From Gordonia bronchialis DSM 43247 (lineage in GTDB: Bacteria; Actinomycetota; Actinomycetes; Mycobacteriales; Mycobacteriaceae): a DNA stretch of 64,000 nt. The translations under genes were made by a program, and so were the position numbers. The stretch is taken from positions 1,178,001 to 1,242,000 of the forward strand of contig NC_013441.1 in the NCBI RefSeq assembly GCF_000024785.1, given 5' to 3'. The notes under the pieces are model-generated. The model searched no databases. It was not told where the DNA came from and was given only the letters and a program-made list of their open reading frames with translations. The first letter of the stretch is position 1, and every line of letters starts with the position of its first letter. Shown piece by piece: positions 52,465 through 64,000 of this stretch.

Positions 52465-53433
52465 TTAGTTGGTTCCGGCCTCTGCTGGGACCGGGTTCTC
52501 ACGGTAGCTGGTGACCGTGTGGGCCGCCCAGTAGGCGGCCTCGTACTCGACCGGCGGGACGTGTCCGATCTCGCCGTGCAGACGGCGGTGGTTGAACCAC
52601 TCGATGTACTCGGCGACCGCGATCTCGACGTCGCCGACACCGCCCCACCCGCTCTTCGGGCGCATGATCGGGTTGCGGATACATTCCGCCTTGAATAACG
52701 AGTTGAACGCCTCGGCCATCGCGTTGTCATACGAATCACCCTTGGAGCCAACCGAAGTCACCGCTTCAGCTTCGGCGAGACGCTCGGTGTAACGAATCGC
52801 TCGATACTGCACTCCGCGGTCCGAGTGGTGAATCAGTCCGGCCACATCCTGGCCGGCACGATCACGCGCCCACAATCCCATGTCTAAGGCGTCCAATGCG
52901 AGGTCGGTGTGCATCGTGGTCGAGACCTGCCAGCCGACGACCACGCGCGAGTACACGTCGAGGATGAACGCCGCGTACACCCACCCGGAGTGGGTGCGGA
53001 TGTAGGTCAGGTCCGCCACCCACAAGGTGTTCGGCGCCTCGGCGGTGAACTGCCGGCCGACTCGGTCGGCCGGTTGCGGGGTTTCGGCGCCATCGCTGCG
53101 GGTGGTCCTGCGTGTCTTCAACCTCGGTATCCCTTGCAGTCCATCGGCTTTCATCAATCGTTCGACAGTGCAGCGCGCCACGTCGATATCCTTTCTGCGT
53201 AGTTCGGCGTGGACCTTGCGGGCACCGTAGACGCCGAGATTGTCGGCGTGCACGGTGCGGATCTCGCCGAGCATCTCCCGGTCACGCACCGTGCGTGGCG
53301 CCTCGGTCTTGTTCGCACTCAGGTGGGCTCGTACCGTGGACGGAGCGATCTGGGCGGCCGTGTCGCGTAGGGCCGCGCAGATCGGATCGACTCCGTGTTC
53401 GTCGCGAGAAGCGGCGACGAACTCCACGATCAA
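52465..53433 (-). CDS. IS3-family transposase OrfB
   Basis: A 322-residue DDE integrase-like catalytic subunit. The HTH_21-like N-terminal part (YGARKVHAELRRKDIDVARCTVERLMK) precedes the rve domain with D in VADLTYIRTHSGW, D in LIHHSDRGVQY and E in YDNAMAEAFNSLFKAE. The TTG start overlaps the orfA stop. The active protein is probably the OrfAB fusion made by -1 slippage on the T7 run (A7 on the plus strand, about 53461-53467). Confidence 0.93.
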   Translation of the reverse strand: MIVEFVAASRDEHGVDPICAALRDTAAQIAPSTVRAHLSANKTEAPRTVRDREMLGEIRTVHADNLGVYGARKVHAELRRKDIDVARCTVERLMKADGLQGIPRLKTRRTTRSDGAETPQPADRVGRQFTAEAPNTLWVADLTYIRTHSGWVYAAFILDVYSRVVVGWQVSTTMHTDLALDALDMGLWARDRAGQDVAGLIHHSDRGVQYRAIRYTERLAEAEAVTSVGSKGDSYDNAMAEAFNSLFKAECIRNPIMRPKSGWGGVGDVEIAVAEYIEWFNHRRLHGEIGHVPPVEYEAAYWAAHTVTSYRENPVPAEAGTN

Positions 53434-53756
53434 CGCTGTGGGCGGTCGATCTCCGCGGCAAAAAAAGCCGACGCCTGCTTCAAGATCGTGTTCGCCCGCC
53501 GCAGCTCGCGGTTCTCCCGCTCGAGCTGCGCGATCCGCTCGGAATCGCTGCTCGTGGTACCCGGCCGCTGCCCGCCATCGATTTCGGCTTGCTTGACCCA
53601 GGTGCGTAGCGCCTCCGGGTGCACACCGAGTTGATCGCCGATCCGTTTGAACGCTCCCGGCCGTGTGGCCGGGTCCTTGCGGGCTTCCACCGCCATCCGC
53701 GTCGCTCGCTCCTTCAGCTCAATGCTGTACTTCCGAGGTGCTGCCATGCTCTCCAT
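53430..53756 (-). CDS. IS3-family transposase OrfA
   Basis: A 108-residue protein. A helix-turn-helix of HTH_Tnp_1 type (KRIGDQLGVHPEALRTWVKQAE) binds the terminal repeats, followed by a leucine-zipper-like coiled coil (SERIAQLERENRELRRANTI). The coding sequence passes the T7 slippery site just before its stop. An alternative start lies three codons downstream. Confidence 0.92.
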   Translation of the reverse strand: MESMAAPRKYSIELKERATRMAVEARKDPATRPGAFKRIGDQLGVHPEALRTWVKQAEIDGGQRPGTTSSDSERIAQLERENRELRRANTILKQASAFFAAEIDRPQR

Positions 53757-53799
53757 CCTTCACAGGTTCGAGAGCCTCCGACGAACCCGGGGCGGTTCA

Positions 53800-56700
53800 G
53801 AGTACCCTGCTGCTGCTGATCCGAGTTCACACCCTCAACCAACGCCGCTGACTGTCGCGTATGCACATGATCCGTATGGCCTGAGTAGTCGGCAGCAAAG
53901 TAGGAGCCGTCCGTGTCGGGTTTCCCACCTGCCCAACCAATCCGCTGACCAGTCTGCGGGTTCTGCCAAATGATCTGCTCCAACTGCGGCATCTGCGGTG
54001 CCACCGAAATCAGATACTCGGCGAACCGTTGCATCGCATCCACCGCACCCGACCAGTCGATACCCCGATTCAGTTGTTGTGGGTTCGGTGCGTAACCGGC
54101 CTCGCCCCGGTCCGATTCCTGATGCCCCGCATACGTGGACGCCTGAACCCCAAACTTGGAGCCCAGTTCACCCACCCAGGGTGGGAATCCGCTACCGCCG
54201 TAGGAGATTGCGGTGCCGGGTTGCAGTCCGTAGCTACCGGCGACCAAACCGCCGTCGGCGTATCCGCCGAGAGTGGGTATCTGCCCGGTCCGGTTCATGT
54301 AGTCCAGGGCACCCGGATTCTCCCGCTCAATCCTGTTCTGGGATTCCTTCTTGATGACGTACTCGTCGGCGTGCACGATGCCAGCTTCTTGATACTTGTG
54401 CCCCGGACCTGTCCAACCACCAGCAGAATGGAACTGGCGTGCCGCGCCAGGCACATTCGCCACACCGTTATTCGGGGTGTAGCCCTGCGTGTTCTGCATG
54501 ACGACCGACACATACTTCGTTTCCGGTCGGGTAACTCGCTGCATTTCACGCCAAAACGCATCCGTGGAGGCCTTGATGATCACCGATCCATCCGGCAATG
54601 TCTCGGTTTGCACGCCGAGCTGCTGTAGACGCGCCATCACCTCAGGTGAGGTATCGGTGATCCTCACCTTCCCATCAGGCAATGCCTGAGTTTGAATTCC
54701 CAGCTTTTCCAACTCACGACCAACAGCGACCGCCGTAGACGAAATACGGATCGTCTTCACGCCGTTGCGGTCGATTTCCTCCAACTTGTAGCCGAGTTGT
54801 TCCAGGGCGACGCGGGTTTGGTCGGTGATGTCATCCGCGCGAACCTCGATCGTCTTCGGCTGCCCCGGCTGGATACGCTCCAACTGGGAGTACACCAACC
54901 CAAGCTGCTGTTGTGTGGTGTCTGCGCCCCGCAAGTTCATGGTCAGGTCGATCGTCGATCCGCCCAAGTTCTGGTACGCGGCACGGATACGATCAATCGA
55001 CACACCATACTGCTGCGCCAACTGGGCGAACGTCTTCTCATTCTCCTGATTGACGCGACCCATGTCGCCGTTGTTCGCGGCCACATCAGCAGCAGCATCA
55101 GCCATATCCTTCAACGTGCCATGCAGATTCGCACCGTTGGCCTGGAACGTATCAATGCTGCCGTTCGCGGCGACCAGCGAATCACCAAACCCCTGCGTCC
55201 GGTCAATCGCCTGATCCAACTGCTCATTCACTTGGGCGATGGTTTCCGCGTACTGTGCGGTCGCCTCCTGCACCGTACGCGCCGGATTCATGGCGTCCAT
55301 CGCAGCCTTCAAAGCATCAGCCTTATCCGCAGCCGAAGCAGTCTCATCCCCCAACTTGGCGACCGCAGTCGCAGCCTCCTCGAACCCAGGAGTTACCCGC
55401 CGCGCAGCTTCTCGCTGCTCCACAAACTTGGCCCGCATCTCCGACAACTGAGCCGCAGCCAACGAACCCGAATCGCCCGTCTGCGCGAGACGCGAAGCGA
55501 GAGAAGCGAACTGGTCATCCGAGCCATACACGCTCCGCGACAACTGTTCGGTCGACATCCCGAGGTCGTCAATGGCCTTACGTGCCTCATCAGCCTGCTT
55601 GGCCGCATCGTTCGTCGCATCCTCGGTGTGGAACGCCAGCTTGAACACGCCACCAACCGATTTGAGCGTGTCCCACGTCGACTTCTGCTTAGCCGCCGCC
55701 GTATCCAACGTTTCGAGATAGCTGTCTAACTCGCCCGTAGCCTTCGACCACACCTCGTTCGACATTTCACCACGTGTAGCCTGCAACGCCTCCCGCAACC
55801 CGATCTCGCTGTCCTCTAGACGCTCTACCGCCTCACGATGGGCCTCAGCCTTCGCGGTGTTCTCCGCGTGCTGCTGTGCCAGCATCAACGCCGCCACACT
55901 CGCCGCCGCAAACGCCGCACCCAACGGCCCACCAAACAGGCTCACAACCGAGGACCCGGCCGCACGCAACCCCGTCATCGAGGCGGCAGCCACACCCGCC
56001 GACCGGCCGAACCGGTCCGCCCCGGCCGCGCCTTGCAGAAACGACGACTGCATACGGGCAACCACCGGCGCGTGCTGCCCTAGCTGTGCGATTGAGGAAC
56101 CGAAGCGTCCCATCTGCACCGCACCGACCCGACCGGCCTGCACAACAGCATTGTTCGCGGTCGCTAACCGGCCCATCGCGGCAGCACCAGACAGTGCGTT
56201 CGCAGCCAGGGGTGCCATCGTCGCCGTCACCCGCGCCATCACAGGAGGAATCAGCTTGAACGCCACGAACGCGGCAGCCAACGCCGTCACCGCCACCTGA
56301 TTGTTCGACATCAGACCAGCAACCGACGACAGCAGCGGCTCCAACACTTGCAGCACGCCGGTCGCTGCCTGCATGACTGTCAACAACACATGCCACGCCC
56401 CGACACCAATCGCAGCGGCAGCCTTCCCCAACGATGCTGTGATAGTGCCCAGAGCAGGACCCAGGGCGGCAGCGGCAGACACGAGTCCTGTCAGGGCGTC
56501 CCGCGTCGACTCCACCAACTGCGACAACCGAGCCTTGTTGTTCGGGTCGTTCAATCCTGCCGAGATAGCCGCAGCCATCTCCTTCGACTTCGACACCAGG
56601 CCGTCAATCGCGGACGACGCACCATTCGCCGCAGCCGTCAACGGCCCCTTAATCGCGTCATAAATCGTCAACGACGCTTCTTCGAAGTTGTTTTTCAGGT

Positions 56701-57745
56701 TCTCCCACGCACCCGGCAAACCCTGCATCTTCGCCGCAGCCACCGCAGCCGCCGATCCGGACTGATCCATCGCGACACGCATCTTCGCGAAACCATCCGC
56801 GCCCTGCTGCGCCGCAATCCCACTAAGCCGCATAGCATCCGAACCAAACAAGGTGGCAGTAGCGGCCTGATACTGCTCGGCGGTCATCCGTTTCGACGCG
56901 GCCTGCAACTGCCCGAACAGCGTTTCCATGCCCGCGAACCTGCCGTTCGCGTCATACACGGTTAGCCCGAGTTCCTTGATCGCCGTCTGCGCCGGGTCAC
57001 TCGTATCCGTCAACGCCAACAACGCCGACTTCAGCAGGGTGCCGGCATCCGACCCTTGGATACCCGCATTCGCCATCAACGCGATCGACGCGGCAGTGTC
57101 CGTCATCGACAACCCGAACTGGTTCGCCACCGCGCCGGACTGTTGCAGCGCCGACGCCACATCGGTGATCTCCGCAGACGAAGCGTTCGCGGCGTTCGCC
57201 AGAATATCGGATGCTTTGCCCGCATAGTCAGCCTGCAACCCGAACGCCTGCAATGCTTGCGACTGGATGGTTGCGGCCTCAGCGGCTTCGATCTGCGCGG
57301 CGGCAGCCAACTGGAGTGTGCCTTTCGCGGCCTGCATCGACTGCTCGACAGTGAAACCACCCTTAGCGAGTTCGAGCATGGCGTTCGCAGCATCCACCGA
57401 CGAGGTGCCCGCCAACGAGCTGTCGGTGCCCAACTGTCGGGCAGCCGCGGACACCGCCTGCAACTGCGACGCCGACGCCCCCGACACCGCCTGCATCGTG
57501 TTCAAAGCGGTGGTGAAATCCATACCAGCCGTTACAGCAGACTTGAGGACCCCCGCCACCGACATGACACCACCGGCCACACCAACAAACTTGAGCGCCG
57601 AGGATACGCGGGTCGCCGCACCGGACAGGCCAGTCAACGATCGTTGCGCCCGCCCCGCCTGCCCCTCCGCAGCCGCCAACCCAGCCCGAAACTGGTCACC
57701 TTCAAGCCGCAGATAGGCGACAAGCTCACCAACGTTTAACGCCAT
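53800..57745 (-). pseudogene. Phage tail tape-measure protein, N-terminal part (IS3-disrupted)
   Basis: About 1315 residues. The N-terminal phage-tail TP901-type tape-measure core has MALNVGELVAYLRLEGDQFR, and LKSAVTAGMDFTTALNTMQ followed by ANAMLELAKGGFTVEQSMQAA. Hydrophobic segments lie near residues 480-560. Helical repeats follow, then a tail domain with DGSYFAADYSGHTDHVHTRQ, a His-rich hydrolase-like motif. Reading is cut at NSDQQQQGTL by IS3 copy 1; the remainder lies across the IS. ATG 57745 is the start. Without the junction intact the phage cannot build a normal tail. Confidence 0.88.
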
Positions 57746-57820
57746 CAAAGACTCCGATCAAAAATGACCTGCGGATTAGGTATCCGACAGGTTGAAGAAA
57801 CGTGCTGGTAGAAGGACGGT

Positions 57821-57837
57821 TGGTCACGTCCTGGTCA
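57821..57837 (-). repeat. TGACCA-N3-CG-TGACCA motif, copy 3
   Basis: On the minus strand it reads TGACCAGGACGTGACCA, overlapping the last codons of the HTH gene and lying upstream of the tape-measure gene. Confidence 0.6.
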
Positions 57838-58318
57838 CGCGCTCCGCGTGCTGCTCGCGTTCCTCAGCAGCAATCACCGCCGCCATATCGTCCTGCAACT
57901 TGAGGATCGCAGACTTGGCCTCATCGGCATCAGCCCCAGACGGGGCCAACTCACCAAGAATCGAGTGCGAACGGATCAACCGCTCAATCGCATTCGCAAT
58001 GTCAGCGAGGGCACGAGAATCTGCGGGGTCGTCCGTCGACCACAACCGCTCACGCAGATTCATCACATCCGCCAGCAGTCGCGACGCAAGCTCACGACGT
58101 TCGGCCTTGATCCGCTCATGCTGAGCACGAGCACCAACGGGCACCCCCGACCAGGCCAAACCCATACGCTTCGACCACCGTGACAACGCGGGCTGCTTGA
58201 CCCCAAGCTCCTTAGCAATCGCATTCTGCGATTGACCCGCCGCGTGGGCGGCACGAATCGCCGCCTCCTGGTCCTCGGTAGGCTCCCAGCGCGCCGTCAC
58301 CTTTTGATACCCCAGCAC
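57824..58318 (-). CDS. Phage helix-turn-helix protein (possible small terminase-like), 5' end uncertain
   Basis: A 164-residue protein. The HTH (AGQSQNAIAKELGVKQPALSRWSKRMG, residues about 30-57) is followed by a helical region rich in Arg/Glu/Ala (RIKAERRELASRLLADVMNL). Such proteins in actinophages are often called small terminase or DNA-binding proteins; this one could be either. The frame stays open upstream through RRAACRYPCAH to the border of IS3 copy 2, so the native start may have been cut off. In intact siphophages many head genes separate such a gene from the tape measure; here they are adjacent. Confidence 0.6.
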   Translation of the reverse strand: MLGYQKVTARWEPTEDQEAAIRAAHAAGQSQNAIAKELGVKQPALSRWSKRMGLAWSGVPVGARAQHERIKAERRELASRLLADVMNLRERLWSTDDPADSRALADIANAIERLIRSHSILGELAPSGADADEAKSAILKLQDDMAAVIAAEEREQHAERVTRT

Positions 58319-58389
58319 GTGCGCGCACGGATAACGACAAGCAGCGCGGCGTGCGGCTTTGAATCGCCCCGGGTTTGCTGGAGGCTCGG

Positions 58390-59358
58390 TTAGTTGGTTC
58401 CGGCCTCTGCTGGGACCGGGTTCTCACGGTAGCTGGTGACCGTGTGGGCCGCCCAGTAGGCGGCCTCGTACTCGACCGGCGGGACGTGTCCGATCTCGCC
58501 GTGCAGACGGCGGTGGTTGAACCACTCGATGTACTCGGCGACCGCGATCTCGACGTCGCCGACACCGCCCCACCCGCTCTTCGGGCGCATGATCGGGTTG
58601 CGGATACATTCCGCCTTGAATAACGAGTTGAACGCCTCGGCCATCGCGTTGTCATACGAATCACCCTTGGAGCCAACCGAAGTCACCGCTTCAGCTTCGG
58701 CGAGACGCTCGGTGTAACGAATCGCTCGATACTGCACTCCGCGGTCCGAGTGGTGAATCAGTCCGGCCACATCCTGGCCGGCACGATCACGCGCCCACAA
58801 TCCCATGTCTAAGGCGTCCAATGCGAGGTCGGTGTGCATCGTGGTCGAGACCTGCCAGCCGACGACCACGCGCGAGTACACGTCGAGGATGAACGCCGCG
58901 TACACCCACCCGGAGTGGGTGCGGATGTAGGTCAGGTCCGCCACCCACAAGGTGTTCGGCGCCTCGGCGGTGAACTGCCGGCCGACTCGGTCGGCCGGTT
59001 GCGGGGTTTCGGCGCCATCGCTGCGGGTGGTCCTGCGTGTCTTCAACCTCGGTATCCCTTGCAGTCCATCGGCTTTCATCAATCGTTCGACAGTGCAGCG
59101 CGCCACGTCGATATCCTTTCTGCGTAGTTCGGCGTGGACCTTGCGGGCACCGTAGACGCCGAGATTGTCGGCGTGCACGGTGCGGATCTCGCCGAGCATC
59201 TCCCGGTCACGCACCGTGCGTGGCGCCTCGGTCTTGTTCGCACTCAGGTGGGCTCGTACCGTGGACGGAGCGATCTGGGCGGCCGTGTCGCGTAGGGCCG
59301 CGCAGATCGGATCGACTCCGTGTTCGTCGCGAGAAGCGGCGACGAACTCCACGATCAA
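58390..59358 (-). CDS. IS3-family transposase OrfB (copy 2)
   Basis: A 322-residue protein identical at the amino-acid level to OrfB of copy 1, with all three catalytic acidic residues intact (VADLTYI, HHSDRGVQY and AEAFNSLFKAE). It is therefore likely active. Confidence 0.93.
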   Translation of the reverse strand: MIVEFVAASRDEHGVDPICAALRDTAAQIAPSTVRAHLSANKTEAPRTVRDREMLGEIRTVHADNLGVYGARKVHAELRRKDIDVARCTVERLMKADGLQGIPRLKTRRTTRSDGAETPQPADRVGRQFTAEAPNTLWVADLTYIRTHSGWVYAAFILDVYSRVVVGWQVSTTMHTDLALDALDMGLWARDRAGQDVAGLIHHSDRGVQYRAIRYTERLAEAEAVTSVGSKGDSYDNAMAEAFNSLFKAECIRNPIMRPKSGWGGVGDVEIAVAEYIEWFNHRRLHGEIGHVPPVEYEAAYWAAHTVTSYRENPVPAEAGTN

Positions 59359-59681
59359 CGCTGTGGGCGGTCGATCTCCGCGGCAAAAAAAGCCGACGCC
59401 TGCTTCAAGATCGTGTTCGCCCGCCGCAGCTCGCGGTTCTCCCGCTCGAGCTGCGCGATCCGCTCGGAATCGCTGCTCGTGGTACCCGGCCGCTGCCCGC
59501 CATCGATTTCGGCTTGCTTGACCCAGGTGCGTAGCGCCTCCGGGTGCACACCGAGTTGATCGCCGATCCGTTTGAACGCTCCCGGCCGTGTGGCCGGGTC
59601 CTTGCGGGCTTCCACCGCCATCCGCGTCGCTCGCTCCTTCAGCTCAATGCTGTACTTCCGAGGTGCTGCCATGCTCTCCAT
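59355..59681 (-). CDS. IS3-family transposase OrfA (copy 2)
   Basis: A 108-residue HTH protein identical to OrfA of copy 1, with the same slippery T7 run and 4-bp overlap with orfB. Confidence 0.92.
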   Translation of the reverse strand: MESMAAPRKYSIELKERATRMAVEARKDPATRPGAFKRIGDQLGVHPEALRTWVKQAEIDGGQRPGTTSSDSERIAQLERENRELRRANTILKQASAFFAAEIDRPQR

Positions 59682-59724
59682 CCTTCACAGGTTCGAGAGC
59701 CTCCGACGAACCCGGGGCGGTTCA

Positions 59725-60865
59725 CGGCGTTCGCGCAGAACTTTCCCGAGGGCAGATGCGCCAATGCGGAGGCTTTGAGGTCGGCGTGGACTTGCTCGAT
59801 GATCGCATGACCGCGGTGAGTCTTGTCGGCGGTCACGGTGTCCAGGTCGCTGGTGGTGAAGAACGCATGAAACCGCCACACGTCGAACAAGCCGTCTCCC
59901 TCGGCTGCGAAGTCAGGGATACGGCGCACCACCAGCCGTCCGGATACCTGCAGGCGCTTGGCTTTGGAGGTGAACGCGGTGAACGGTACTTCGGCGACCT
60001 CGGCCCGCGAGACCCACTGGCCGCTGTCTTCGTCGAAGACGGCGTCGGTGTACTCGATCGGCGTCCATGCATCTGCCGGTATCTCGCTGATCGCTGCTCG
60101 GACGTGGGAATCCTGACGCACGGTGACCGACACCTGCGCACCGGCCCGGAGCGCGGTGGTGATCGCGCGATGGCCGTAGAACGCTGAATCCGCTCGCAGC
60201 AGTATCGGTCCCGACGCATCGGACGACCGTAGCCGCCGCACGGTGGCCAGGGTGTCGGCGATCAACCGATGCGCCCCGCGCGCGGAGTTACACGCCCCTT
60301 TGCGCAGGCGTTGAGCGGCGATCACCGGCGCACCGTCACCACAGGTGAGGGTGGTGATCGCCGAGTTCAGCCCACGCACTCGGGTGTAGCCGAATCCGAC
60401 GCCCTGCTTGGCCGGGCCGTGGACCTCGATGATCGAGTCGTCGATATCGATCATCACCGGCCCGTCGATCCCCGCCAGCACCGGAGTATGGCGAGCCAGT
60501 CCCGCCAACAGCCGGGTGGCGATCGCATCGGCTTGGCGGACATGCCCGAACCGGAACTCGCGAAGAAACGATCCCAACGTCGACGGGGCGTAAGGATGGT
60601 CGAACACCTTGCCCATCGCGCCGTGTCGCAACACGGCCATGTCGTCGATGCTGTCGGCGCCCGCCACCATCCCCGCCACCAGGGAAAACATTTTCCGATC
60701 CGGATGGGCGCCCTTGTCGGTGGGCACGCTCAGATGCTCGCGGGCCAACTCCGACAGGCTGGCGCGTTCGGCCAGCGCCATCACCGGCACCACCCCCGCA
60801 GCGGCGAGGAGATTCGGATCGTCACAGGATGCAGACCGGACCGGGTGAGTGTGAGACAATCGCAT
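59725..60865 (-). pseudogene. IS1380-family transposase, C-terminus lost
   Basis: About 380 residues from ATG 60865: DPNLLAAAGVVPVMALAERA, GMVAGADSIDDMAVLRHG, then the DDE region with MIDIDDSIIEVHGPAKQG (first Asp) and LLRADSAFYGHRAI (second Asp). It extends to IIEQVHADLKASALAHLPSG near the expected third acidic residue. The last 60-80 residues of a usual protein of around 460 are replaced by IS3 sequence, so it is inactive or nearly so. Confidence 0.88.
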
Positions 60866-60984
60866 CTACGACATGCCCTCCTGTGTGTGTGGATGGAACC
60901 CTAGAGAAGTCCCATTCTGTCACTCAGACAGGGCATTTCGTTTATCCCTCACCGACCGATCACAAGCAAATCGGTGGATCGAGG
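59725..60984. mobile_element. IS1380-family element, truncated
   Basis: The right terminus is the complement of CCTCGATCCACCGATTTG (ending 60984), resembling IS1380-type ends. It is inserted in IS3 fragment 3 between the bases equivalent to CATGT and CTAAGG of the full IS3. The other terminus and the 3' part of the transposase gene are missing, cut by IS3 copy 2. Confidence 0.8.
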
Positions 60985-61559
60985 CTAAGGCGTCCAATGC
61001 GAGGTCGGTGTGCATCGTGGTCGAGACCTGCCAGCCGACGACCACGCGCGAGTACACGTCGAGGATGAACGCCGCGTACACCCACCCGGAGTGGGTGCGG
61101 ATGTAGGTCAGGTCCGCCACCCACAAGGTGTTCGGCGCCTCGGCGGTGAACTGCCGGCCGACTCGGTCGGCCGGTTGCGGGGTTTCGGCGCCATCGCTGC
61201 GGGTGGTCCTGCGTGTCTTCAACCTCGGTATCCCTTGCAGTCCATCGGCTTTCATCAATCGTTCGACAGTGCAGCGCGCCACGTCGATATCCTTTCTGCG
61301 TAGTTCGGCGTGGACCTTGCGGGCACCGTAGACGCCGAGATTGTCGGCGTGCACGGTGCGGATCTCGCCGAGCATCTCCCGGTCACGCACCGTGCGTGGC
61401 GCCTCGGTCTTGTTCGCACTCAGGTGGGCTCGTACCGTGGACGGAGCGATCTGGGCGGCCGTGTCGCGTAGGGCCGCGCAGATCGGATCGACTCCGTGTT
61501 CGTCGCGAGAAGCGGCGACGAACTCCACGATCAACGCTGTGGGCGGTCGATCTCCGCGG
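60985..61559 (-). mobile_element. IS3-family fragment 3 (orfB 5' half)
   Basis: The sequence is identical to about 575 bp of the full IS3, from within orfB (at CTAAGGCGTCC) to CTCCGCGG just before the A7/T7 slippery run. It is bounded by the IS1380-like terminus on the left and by 14 bp of primase gene on the right. The open frame on the minus strand from 61534 encodes the N-terminal half of OrfB. Confidence 0.88.
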
Positions 61560-61573
61560 AACGCTGGCTGAAA
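60993..61573. repeat. 581-bp direct repeat, left copy (IS1634 target duplication)
   Basis: Begins TCCAATGCGAGG inside IS3 fragment 3 and ends GCTGGCTGAAA. The last 14 bp (AACGCTGGCTGAAA) are primase, not IS3, sequence. It abuts the left terminus of the IS1634-family element exactly. An identical segment abuts the right terminus. Confidence 0.85.
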
Positions 61574-63196
61574 CCTGACTTAGCTCATTTTCGTCTGTTT
61601 CGCGGTTTGCGGGGCTGTGACCTGGGGTGTTGGGTTCGGAGGTGGACACTAACCGGCGGTGCTTAGGCTGGTCATGTGGCGTTCGTGCGGACGGTGAAGA
61701 CGAAGTCGGGGGCAACGGCTGTCCAGATTGTGTACTCGAATCGTGGTGGGGCGCGCAGGATCGAGCACATCGGATCTGGTCATGACGAACAGGAGGTCGC
61801 CGCGTTGAAAGCGGCGGCTGCTGCGCGGCTGTCGCAGGGGCAGCAGCAACTGGACCTGGGGATCGCCGCCGTCGATGGGGCTGGGCCACTACCGATCACC
61901 AGTTCGCGGATGGCGGTGCTGGTCGATGCGTTGCTGAGAATCTATGACGAACTCGGATTCACCGAGAAGACGTACGGCGACAACGTGTTTCGTGATCTCG
62001 TACTGGCCAGGATCATCGAGCCGACGAGCAAACTCGATTCGCTGCGGGTCCTGGATGAAGCGGGAGTGAATGCACCGTCGTATGCGACGGTCACCCGCCA
62101 CCTGCGCATGTTTGCCGAGCCGCGGTGGCAGCGTGAGCTGTCGCGGGCGTGCGCCGAGCACGCCCGCCTCGGGCCGGCGACGCTGTGTTTGTATGACGTG
62201 ACGACCCTGTACTTCGAGACCGACAAGGCCGACGGGTTTCGCGAACCGGGGTTCTCCAAGGAACGGCGCCTGGAACCGCAGATCACGGTCGGGTTGTTGA
62301 CCGACGTGTCGGGGTTTCCGTTGATGATGGAAGCGTTCGAAGGAAACCGGGCCGAGACATTGACGATGATGCCGACGCTGACCGCCTTCATGACCGCCCA
62401 CAAGCTCACCGATGTGACCGTGGTGGCCGATGCCGGCATGATCTCGACGGACAATATGAAAGCCATCGAGGATGCCGATCTGACGTTCATTCTGGGGGAG
62501 AAGATCCCGACGGTCCCCTATCTGATCAGCAAGTGGCACAAAGACAATCCCGGATCGACACCGCCGGACGGGTTGACCTTGACCCAACGCAAACCGGCGA
62601 ACTCGAAGACCAGCTACCGCAGGGACCGGGTGGTGTACTACCGCTACAGTGCTGATCGTGCCCGACGCAGCCTGCGGGGCATCACCGAGCAGTTGGAGAG
62701 GGCGGAAAAGGCTGTGGCAGGCAAGATCCCGGTCAAACGTAACCGGTTCGTCACCCTGACCGGCGCGGACAAGAGTGTCAACACTGCGTTGGCTAAGAAG
62801 GCCAAGACCCTCGCGGGATGGAAGGCGTATGCGACGAACATCGACTCTCCAACACCGGATTTCGTGATCGGCTCGTACCACCAGCTGTGGCGCATCGAGA
62901 AGAGCTTCCGCATGTCGAAATCTGATCTGGCCGCCCGCCCGATCTTCCACCACCTCGAGGGATCGATCCGGGCGCACCTGACGATCGTGTTCGCCGCACT
63001 CGCGATCACCCGGATCGTCGAAGCCCGCACCGGATGGTCGATCAAGAAGTTCGTCACCACCGCACGCCGCTACCGCACCATCGAGATCCAAGCCGCCGGT
63101 CAGACCGTCACCGCCGCAGATCCGCTCCCCGACGACCTGGCTCAGGCTCTGCGCGACCTCGCCCCAGACGTGGACACTAATTTGAGCTAAGTCAGG
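61574..63196. mobile_element. IS1634/IS1549-type element (intact, 1623 bp)
   Basis: Terminal 14-bp perfect inverted repeats CCTGACTTAGCTCA at 61574-61587 and 63183-63196. It encodes one transposase whose stop codon lies inside the right repeat. It is flanked by 581-bp identical direct repeats. Members of this family (IS1634 of Mycoplasma, IS1549 of Mycobacterium) are known for unusually long, variable target duplications, which supports the reading. Confidence 0.88.
61676..63190 (+). CDS. IS1634-family (IS4 superfamily) transposase
   Basis: A 504-residue DDE transposase with an insertion domain. The first Asp is in LCLYDVTTLYFET and the second in VVADAGMIST. The third acidic residue lies in the YREK-type signature YHQLWRIEKSFRMSKSD. 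The C-terminal IRAHLTIVFAALAITRI segment is typical of the IS1634/IS1549 group. The GTG start at 61676 lies 6 nt after a TAGGCT box (61664-61669), suggesting a leaderless transcript. No frameshift or stop is seen, so it is presumably active. Confidence 0.92.
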   Translation: MAFVRTVKTKSGATAVQIVYSNRGGARRIEHIGSGHDEQEVAALKAAAAARLSQGQQQLDLGIAAVDGAGPLPITSSRMAVLVDALLRIYDELGFTEKTYGDNVFRDLVLARIIEPTSKLDSLRVLDEAGVNAPSYATVTRHLRMFAEPRWQRELSRACAEHARLGPATLCLYDVTTLYFETDKADGFREPGFSKERRLEPQITVGLLTDVSGFPLMMEAFEGNRAETLTMMPTLTAFMTAHKLTDVTVVADAGMISTDNMKAIEDADLTFILGEKIPTVPYLISKWHKDNPGSTPPDGLTLTQRKPANSKTSYRRDRVVYYRYSADRARRSLRGITEQLERAEKAVAGKIPVKRNRFVTLTGADKSVNTALAKKAKTLAGWKAYATNIDSPTPDFVIGSYHQLWRIEKSFRMSKSDLAARPIFHHLEGSIRAHLTIVFAALAITRIVEARTGWSIKKFVTTARRYRTIEIQAAGQTVTAADPLPDDLAQALRDLAPDVDTNLS

Positions 63197-63777
63197 TCCA
63201 ATGCGAGGTCGGTGTGCATCGTGGTCGAGACCTGCCAGCCGACGACCACGCGCGAGTACACGTCGAGGATGAACGCCGCGTACACCCACCCGGAGTGGGT
63301 GCGGATGTAGGTCAGGTCCGCCACCCACAAGGTGTTCGGCGCCTCGGCGGTGAACTGCCGGCCGACTCGGTCGGCCGGTTGCGGGGTTTCGGCGCCATCG
63401 CTGCGGGTGGTCCTGCGTGTCTTCAACCTCGGTATCCCTTGCAGTCCATCGGCTTTCATCAATCGTTCGACAGTGCAGCGCGCCACGTCGATATCCTTTC
63501 TGCGTAGTTCGGCGTGGACCTTGCGGGCACCGTAGACGCCGAGATTGTCGGCGTGCACGGTGCGGATCTCGCCGAGCATCTCCCGGTCACGCACCGTGCG
63601 TGGCGCCTCGGTCTTGTTCGCACTCAGGTGGGCTCGTACCGTGGACGGAGCGATCTGGGCGGCCGTGTCGCGTAGGGCCGCGCAGATCGGATCGACTCCG
63701 TGTTCGTCGCGAGAAGCGGCGACGAACTCCACGATCAACGCTGTGGGCGGTCGATCTCCGCGGAACGCTGGCTGAAA
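63197..63777. repeat. 581-bp direct repeat, right copy (with IS3 fragment 4)
   Basis: Identical to 60993-61573. 63197-63763 is IS3 orfB sequence and 63764-63777 is the primase-derived AACGCTGGCTGAAA, which here continues into the rest of the primase gene. This shows which copy carries the original right flank. Confidence 0.85.
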
Positions 63778-64000
63778 TGCGTCTACGAGATACCCGCGAG
63801 CCCGGTCGCCGCCTGGCCTTCGCGATGAGTGAATGTTGTAGTTGCGCGAAAGTAGGCGTCCCAACCCTTGCGGGGTGAGCGCCTTCTCGAACTTGGATGC
63901 TGTTCCCCACATGTGGGAGTACTTTGCGGAGAGACGCGCTAGAAGGTCGTCGGTGGGTATGAACGTTTCGTCGTCGCACCACACTTCGGCGATGTTGCGT
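63764..64000 (-). pseudogene. Phage/plasmid primase C-terminal domain (DUF3631-like), partial, fused to IS3
   Basis: The minus-strand frame enters from outside the window as RNIAEVWCDDETFIPTDDLL and continues through ARLSAKYSHMWGTASKFEKA and LTPQGLGRLLSRNYNIHSSR to GYLVDAFQPAF. This matches the DUF3631 tail found at the C-terminus of phage bifunctional primase/helicase proteins. At FQPAF it reads in frame into IS3 OrfB (RGDRPPTALIVEF...) and stops at 63187. The native last residues are lost. Confidence 0.7.

Follow-up and report, generated by a model that had tools for sequence, protein, structure and literature searches.

The window, that is, the whole stretch of 64,000 nucleotides analysed here (C1:1178001-1242000 of a 5.29-Mb Gordonia genome in two contigs), contains an IS1634-family insertion sequence of 1623 bp (61574..63196, + strand) flanked on each side by the same 581 bp, and this structure is almost certainly one long target-site duplication. 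The whole statement, namely that an IS1634-family element generated a 581-bp target duplication by joining its ends at two sites, with copying of the DNA between them, seems to us quite probable. The insertion lies close to where a truncated IS3 meets a DUF3631 gene, in a prophage-like region of the genome.

The element begins with CCTGACTTAGCTCA (left inverted repeat, 61574..61587, + strand) and ends with its perfect complement (right inverted repeat, 63183..63196, - strand). An earlier reading of the window made without database searches (the sequence-only reading) had described a 1623-bp IS1634-family element with perfect 14-bp inverted repeats; the length and the repeats at both ends were found as described, and the NCBIfam family model was matched. 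The transposase (504 aa, GTG start, 61676..63190, + strand) contains DDE_Tnp_1 (Pfam) and reaches 392.6 bits, with a cutoff of 100, against the NCBIfam model of the IS1634 family (NF033559). According to the excerpts of PMC2266710, elements of this family range from 1500 to 2000 bp, which includes the length found here, and their ends follow the consensus C-----YT, which fits CCTGACTT at both ends of our element. The AT-rich duplications of 5-6 bp given there for the family differ from ours, which measure 581 bp in the window and 83 and 287 bp at two further copies of this genome. We maintain the family assignment despite the 581 bp because the same paper names IS1549 and IS1634 as exceptions. 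The closest copies in named contigs were from Gordonia in the scan of genome contigs, while no relatives were found among viral contigs, nor, at E 1e-30, among phage records.

The two repeats (60993..61573 and 63197..63777) are identical in 581/581 positions, as the sequence-only reading had expected of its pairwise alignment, and each directly abuts one end of the element. An exact repeat of this length is far beyond chance. Its bases 1-567 correspond to the interior of an IS3 element (60993-61559 in the left copy, 63197-63763 in the right one), and bases 568-581, with no match to IS3, are the 14 bp of a DUF3631 gene (61560-61573 and 63764-63777). This gene (63764..64000, - strand) extends past the window end. 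The insertion target was a truncated IS3 remnant (60985..61559, - strand), whose left end was cut at CTAAG by an IS1380-family element, itself truncated (59725..60984, - strand, with inferred ends), whose transposase ORF (59639-60865) continues into IS3. The remnant extends 8 bp to the left of the repeat (60985-60992, CTAAGGCG), up to the end of the IS1380-family element, and the same 8 bp are found in an intact IS3 at 58809-58816. Since IS3 runs further left, the repeat begins on this side at an arbitrary position within older sequence, as predicted by a target duplication. The apparent end of IS3 homology exactly at this border was an artefact of the repeat finder, and a kinship of the 8 bp with the inverted repeat of the element was dropped, as the IS3 remnant accounts for them.

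Both repeats carry the IS3/DUF3631 junction, therefore two independent IS3 copies are ruled out, in agreement with the earlier claim that the repeat is neither a natural unit nor a pair of IS3 copies. That reading had the repeat starting in IS3 and ending 14 bp into a primase gene; the positions hold, and the product matches DUF3631. Its proposal that a giant target-site duplication explains every junction is supported by the exact repeats and by other copies with long duplications. On the other hand, the strain with an empty site that it suggested looking for was not found: of 59 Gordonia genomes searched, none other than that of the window showed the IS3/DUF3631 junction. A second 581-bp repeat created by assembly error is very improbable. 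Parts of the repeat do occur many times in this genome, with bases 1-567 found in at least 12 other places at 100% identity and in one at 99% (40 of 114 candidates scored), two of the perfect matches being inside the window (52892-53458 and 58817-59383). However, the genome is assembled in only 2 contigs, and the junctions 60992/60993 and 63777/63778 differ from each other, as expected of a true duplication.

Some other traits of the region can be described. An in-frame fusion joins the DUF3631 gene and the IS3 remnant into a 582-aa ORF (L031:13187-14935, window 63187 onward) that stops just within the right end of the element. The IS3 copies at 52892 and 58817, intact or partial, are identical over the 567 bp. 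Phage-type genes (tail tape measure, small-terminase-like) found in 52892-59724 end in or beside IS3 sequence. The IS3 at 58360-59724 is flanked by a phage gene and, on its other side, by the cut IS1380 element. Together, these arrangements suggest an IS3-IS3 recombination with deletion in a prophage.

As proposed in the sequence-only reading, flanking repeats were measured at other copies of the element in this genome. An identical copy is flanked by an 83-bp exact duplication. A third copy (L029, C1:5025364-5038637) is split by an IS1380-family element, and its duplication, 287 bp long with 2 mismatches, was hidden because an IS3-family element later inserted beside the right end and IS1380-family elements occupy both copies of the duplication. 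The latter are found at the same CTAG in opposite orientation and differ by 4 mismatches in 1686 bp, as if the target site had drawn two separate insertions. A fourth relative, 74% identical (C1:44579-46097), showed no duplication, and a right-end fragment of a second related element, 89% identical, is located about 2.1 kb to the left of the third copy (C1:5026884-5027285, - strand). Duplications of 83, 287 and 581 bp in a single genome fit the long and variable type known for IS1549 and IS1634.

A scan of genome contigs gave 77 loci with relatives, and further searches covered 59 genomes of the genus, 401 of the family and 397 of the order, besides 346 genomes of the genus of G108 and 160 of that of G704; these sets overlap and most are samples. 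Relatives were also present in 16 plasmid records, of which 14 were examined. Both ends could be located in 83 distinct copies. Gapless duplications of 13-581 bp flank 50 of these and duplications of exactly 5 bp flank 8, and lengths of 4 bp or of 6-12 bp are absent from the 83 tabulated. At first pass the remaining 25 had no duplication. Two of them, however, delimit a single composite unit whose duplication measures 352 bp, another four have duplications of about 112, 196-203, 215-239 and 468 bp that align with small gaps, and one reaches a contig end. Finally, 18 of the 83 copies are left with no duplication; of these, 3 have a left flank shorter than 160 bp and 1 has an end that is doubtful. 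The 18 may reflect deletions or rearrangements, or may mean that the explanation proposed here fails. In one of them (L170), homology of the left flank with relatives stops about 80 bp short of the element, and next to that flank no homologous right one appears, both among the matches listed; for another (L219), the flank search in relatives gave nothing useful among the matches listed.

The 57 measured insertions vary from 13 to 581 bp, with a median of 83 bp; 10 of them reach at least 200 bp and 4 at least 350 bp. The 581 bp of the window is the maximum, yet no outlier, and fits the tail of the distribution: the probability of a maximum of at least 581 bp among 57 insertions is 0.51 under a log-normal and 0.36 under an exponential fit. 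No helical phasing of the lengths was seen by eye in the 57. Long duplications (13 bp up) and those of 5 bp are two separate modes, and in the clade of the window element the former are the rule and the latter the exception. A side branch (L265-L267, 47% identity, ends CCTGAGTTGTAGCG) has 5-bp duplications in 3/3 copies with both ends located, the ends of a fourth copy not being found. Left out before these counts were 47 rows with no recognised end pair (duplicate loci and degenerate, cut or differently ended copies) and 2 mis-chained rows; L161, one of the 47, has a 5-bp repeat by a looser test and is uncounted. From the omitted rows, L029 and L046 were added to the 57 with ends set by hand, and cross-comparison or gapped alignment brought in the G050 composite, L053, L071, L221 and L242. 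For L242 a length of 245 was entered, while the alignment shows about 215-239, with no effect on the quoted counts. L048, which would be 96 bp, was left out (left flank of 66 bp).

Reading from the joined element end into the duplication, the borders share a motif. The first base is T in 33/57 right-end and 41/57 left-end borders (background 0.18), and the fifth is A in 25/57 borders at the right end and as many at the left (background 0.19). TNNNA is found at 38/114 borders against 3.8 expected: at both borders of 3/57 insertions, at one border of 32/57 and at neither in 22/57. In a set of 52 borders, it occurs 19 times at offset 0 and no more than 5 times at any other offset between -40 and +40. 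The motif was first noticed on 24 insertions and tested on 26, and 31 were added later, including L029, which was already among the 24; these 31 have T at 40/62, A at 26/62 and TNNNA at 19/62 borders. It is as strong for the longest duplications (16/36 borders at 130-581 bp) as for short ones (13/46 at less than 60 bp), and the 5-bp duplications at copies more than 60% identical (TCAAA, TGATA and TCAAA) conform to it as well. So do both borders in the window, with TCCAA at the one joined to the right end (60993..60997, + strand) and, on the - strand, TTTCA at the one joined to the left end (61569..61573). A pattern of one full and one half site, with A at position 5 at one border only, had p 0.015 in the first 26 insertions and 0.46 in the next 31, in the same direction; its overall p of 0.015 is uncorrected, and we do not rely on it.

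The enrichment of TNNNA makes both borders look chosen by the transposase rather than left as scars by recombination, so the long duplications seem to be bounded by transposase-selected sites on both sides. Assembly error leaves such borders unexplained, since long duplications are found in many independent assemblies with a target motif at borders where errors would not place it. The same applies if a 581-bp tandem duplication was already there and the element landed precisely at its joint: the final structure would be the same, but a base-exact coincidence would be needed in the window and again at the other measured insertions (57 in total), and we consider this scarcely credible. An improbable origin, though less so than these two, is that of two 5-bp insertions at nearby sites on sister chromosomes, followed by recombination between the copies that leaves one of them flanked by the intervening segment. 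This predicts the structure of the window, including full 5-bp sites such as TCCAA and TTTCA at the two borders. In that case most insertions would be expected to be simple 5-bp ones. These are rare, however (8/83, against 50/83 gapless ones of at least 13 bp), and TNNNA is found at both borders in only 3/57 long duplications; these two results lead us to disfavour it. In addition, PMC10066036 reports a single fresh IS1549 event with 13 bp.

A long duplication is also found around a composite unit. In Gordonia sp. ABSL11-1, a 21.9-kb unit (L167/L168, G050:C30:7923-29848; L036/L037 are the same element copies) lies between exact repeats of 352 bp, and two identical direct copies of a related element enclose a segment of 18.7 kb. 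Ten ORFs of this unit encode, by Pfam matches, PEP mutase, an AMP-binding/condensation/PP-binding protein, an MFS transporter, an aminotransferase, PGK and several dehydrogenases, so by gene content the unit appears to be a composite transposon carrying a phosphonate-type natural-product cluster. In a Corynebacterium faecale plasmid (NZ_CP047205.1, L160), two direct copies with the same transposase protein, about 2.2 kb apart, surround two SMR transporter genes and a TetR-type regulator. This is possibly a second composite unit, its outer flanks being only partly covered. Elements that can duplicate hundreds of bases on insertion matter for genome annotation and for insertion calling from short reads, and so does the 352-bp duplication bounding the 21.9-kb unit.

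For the window, we suggest that the transposase would have used two target sites 581 bp apart, joining the right end of the element to one strand at TCCAA and the left end to the opposite strand at TTTCA, rather than placing both joints across a single 5-bp site. The segment between the joints would then be unwound and copied on both sides, either by strand-displacing repair synthesis or by a passing replication fork, so that the 581 bp came to be present twice. Taken by itself, the use of separate target sites by the two ends is an explanation we favour somewhat, although TNNNA marks both borders in only 3/57 insertions and neither in 22/57, which counts against it. The wider proposal, in which the ends in this clade are not locked to one target site, each being joined at a transposase-selected site, and the long mode (13 to about 600 bp) is separate from the normal 5-bp mode that the same element also has, has in our view an even chance of being right. 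If true, the duplication length would be set by the distance between the two captured sites, and the opposite geometry of uncoupled ends would give target deletions, which may be some of the copies with no repeats. By analogy, the binding of an Acidiphilium IS1634-family transposase to the sliding clamp (PMC4549789, in excerpt) would suit a fork. No clear clamp motif (QLxLF in that source) was found in the window transposase, whose C-terminus has QALRDL, read by eye. The excerpt also describes three Acidiphilium insertions with 6-base "inverted repeats", which we take to be target duplications.

Long duplications are already known for IS1549 and IS1634, while the separate 5-bp mode may be new. 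The border motif is likely new, with no earlier description found in the titles and abstract openings of the literature on IS1549, IS1634 and long target-site duplication. The excerpts of PMC12338722, PMC12274833, PMC3053259 and PMC6114881 give no duplication lengths for these elements. PMC2266710, a 2008 paper on the IS4 family, states in the excerpts that a mechanistic model was still lacking for the variable duplications of IS1549 and IS1634. With the border motif and the separate 5-bp mode, this gap becomes a testable statement, that of separate target sites for the two ends.

Compared by description, IS1549 from Mycobacterium smegmatis and IS1634 from Mycoplasma mycoides belong to the same family as the window element and likewise generate long, variable duplications, of 8 to 514 bp depending on the copy (PMC2266710, in excerpt), which bears out the statement of the sequence-only reading that both make long ones. 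That reading placed 581 bp near or beyond the long end, and this length does exceed the quoted maximum of 514 bp. Short-duplication elements are members of the same family too, and the 5-bp mode found here uses a similar site (TCAAA, TGATA, TCAAA). Unlike them, the clade of the window element mostly makes long duplications.
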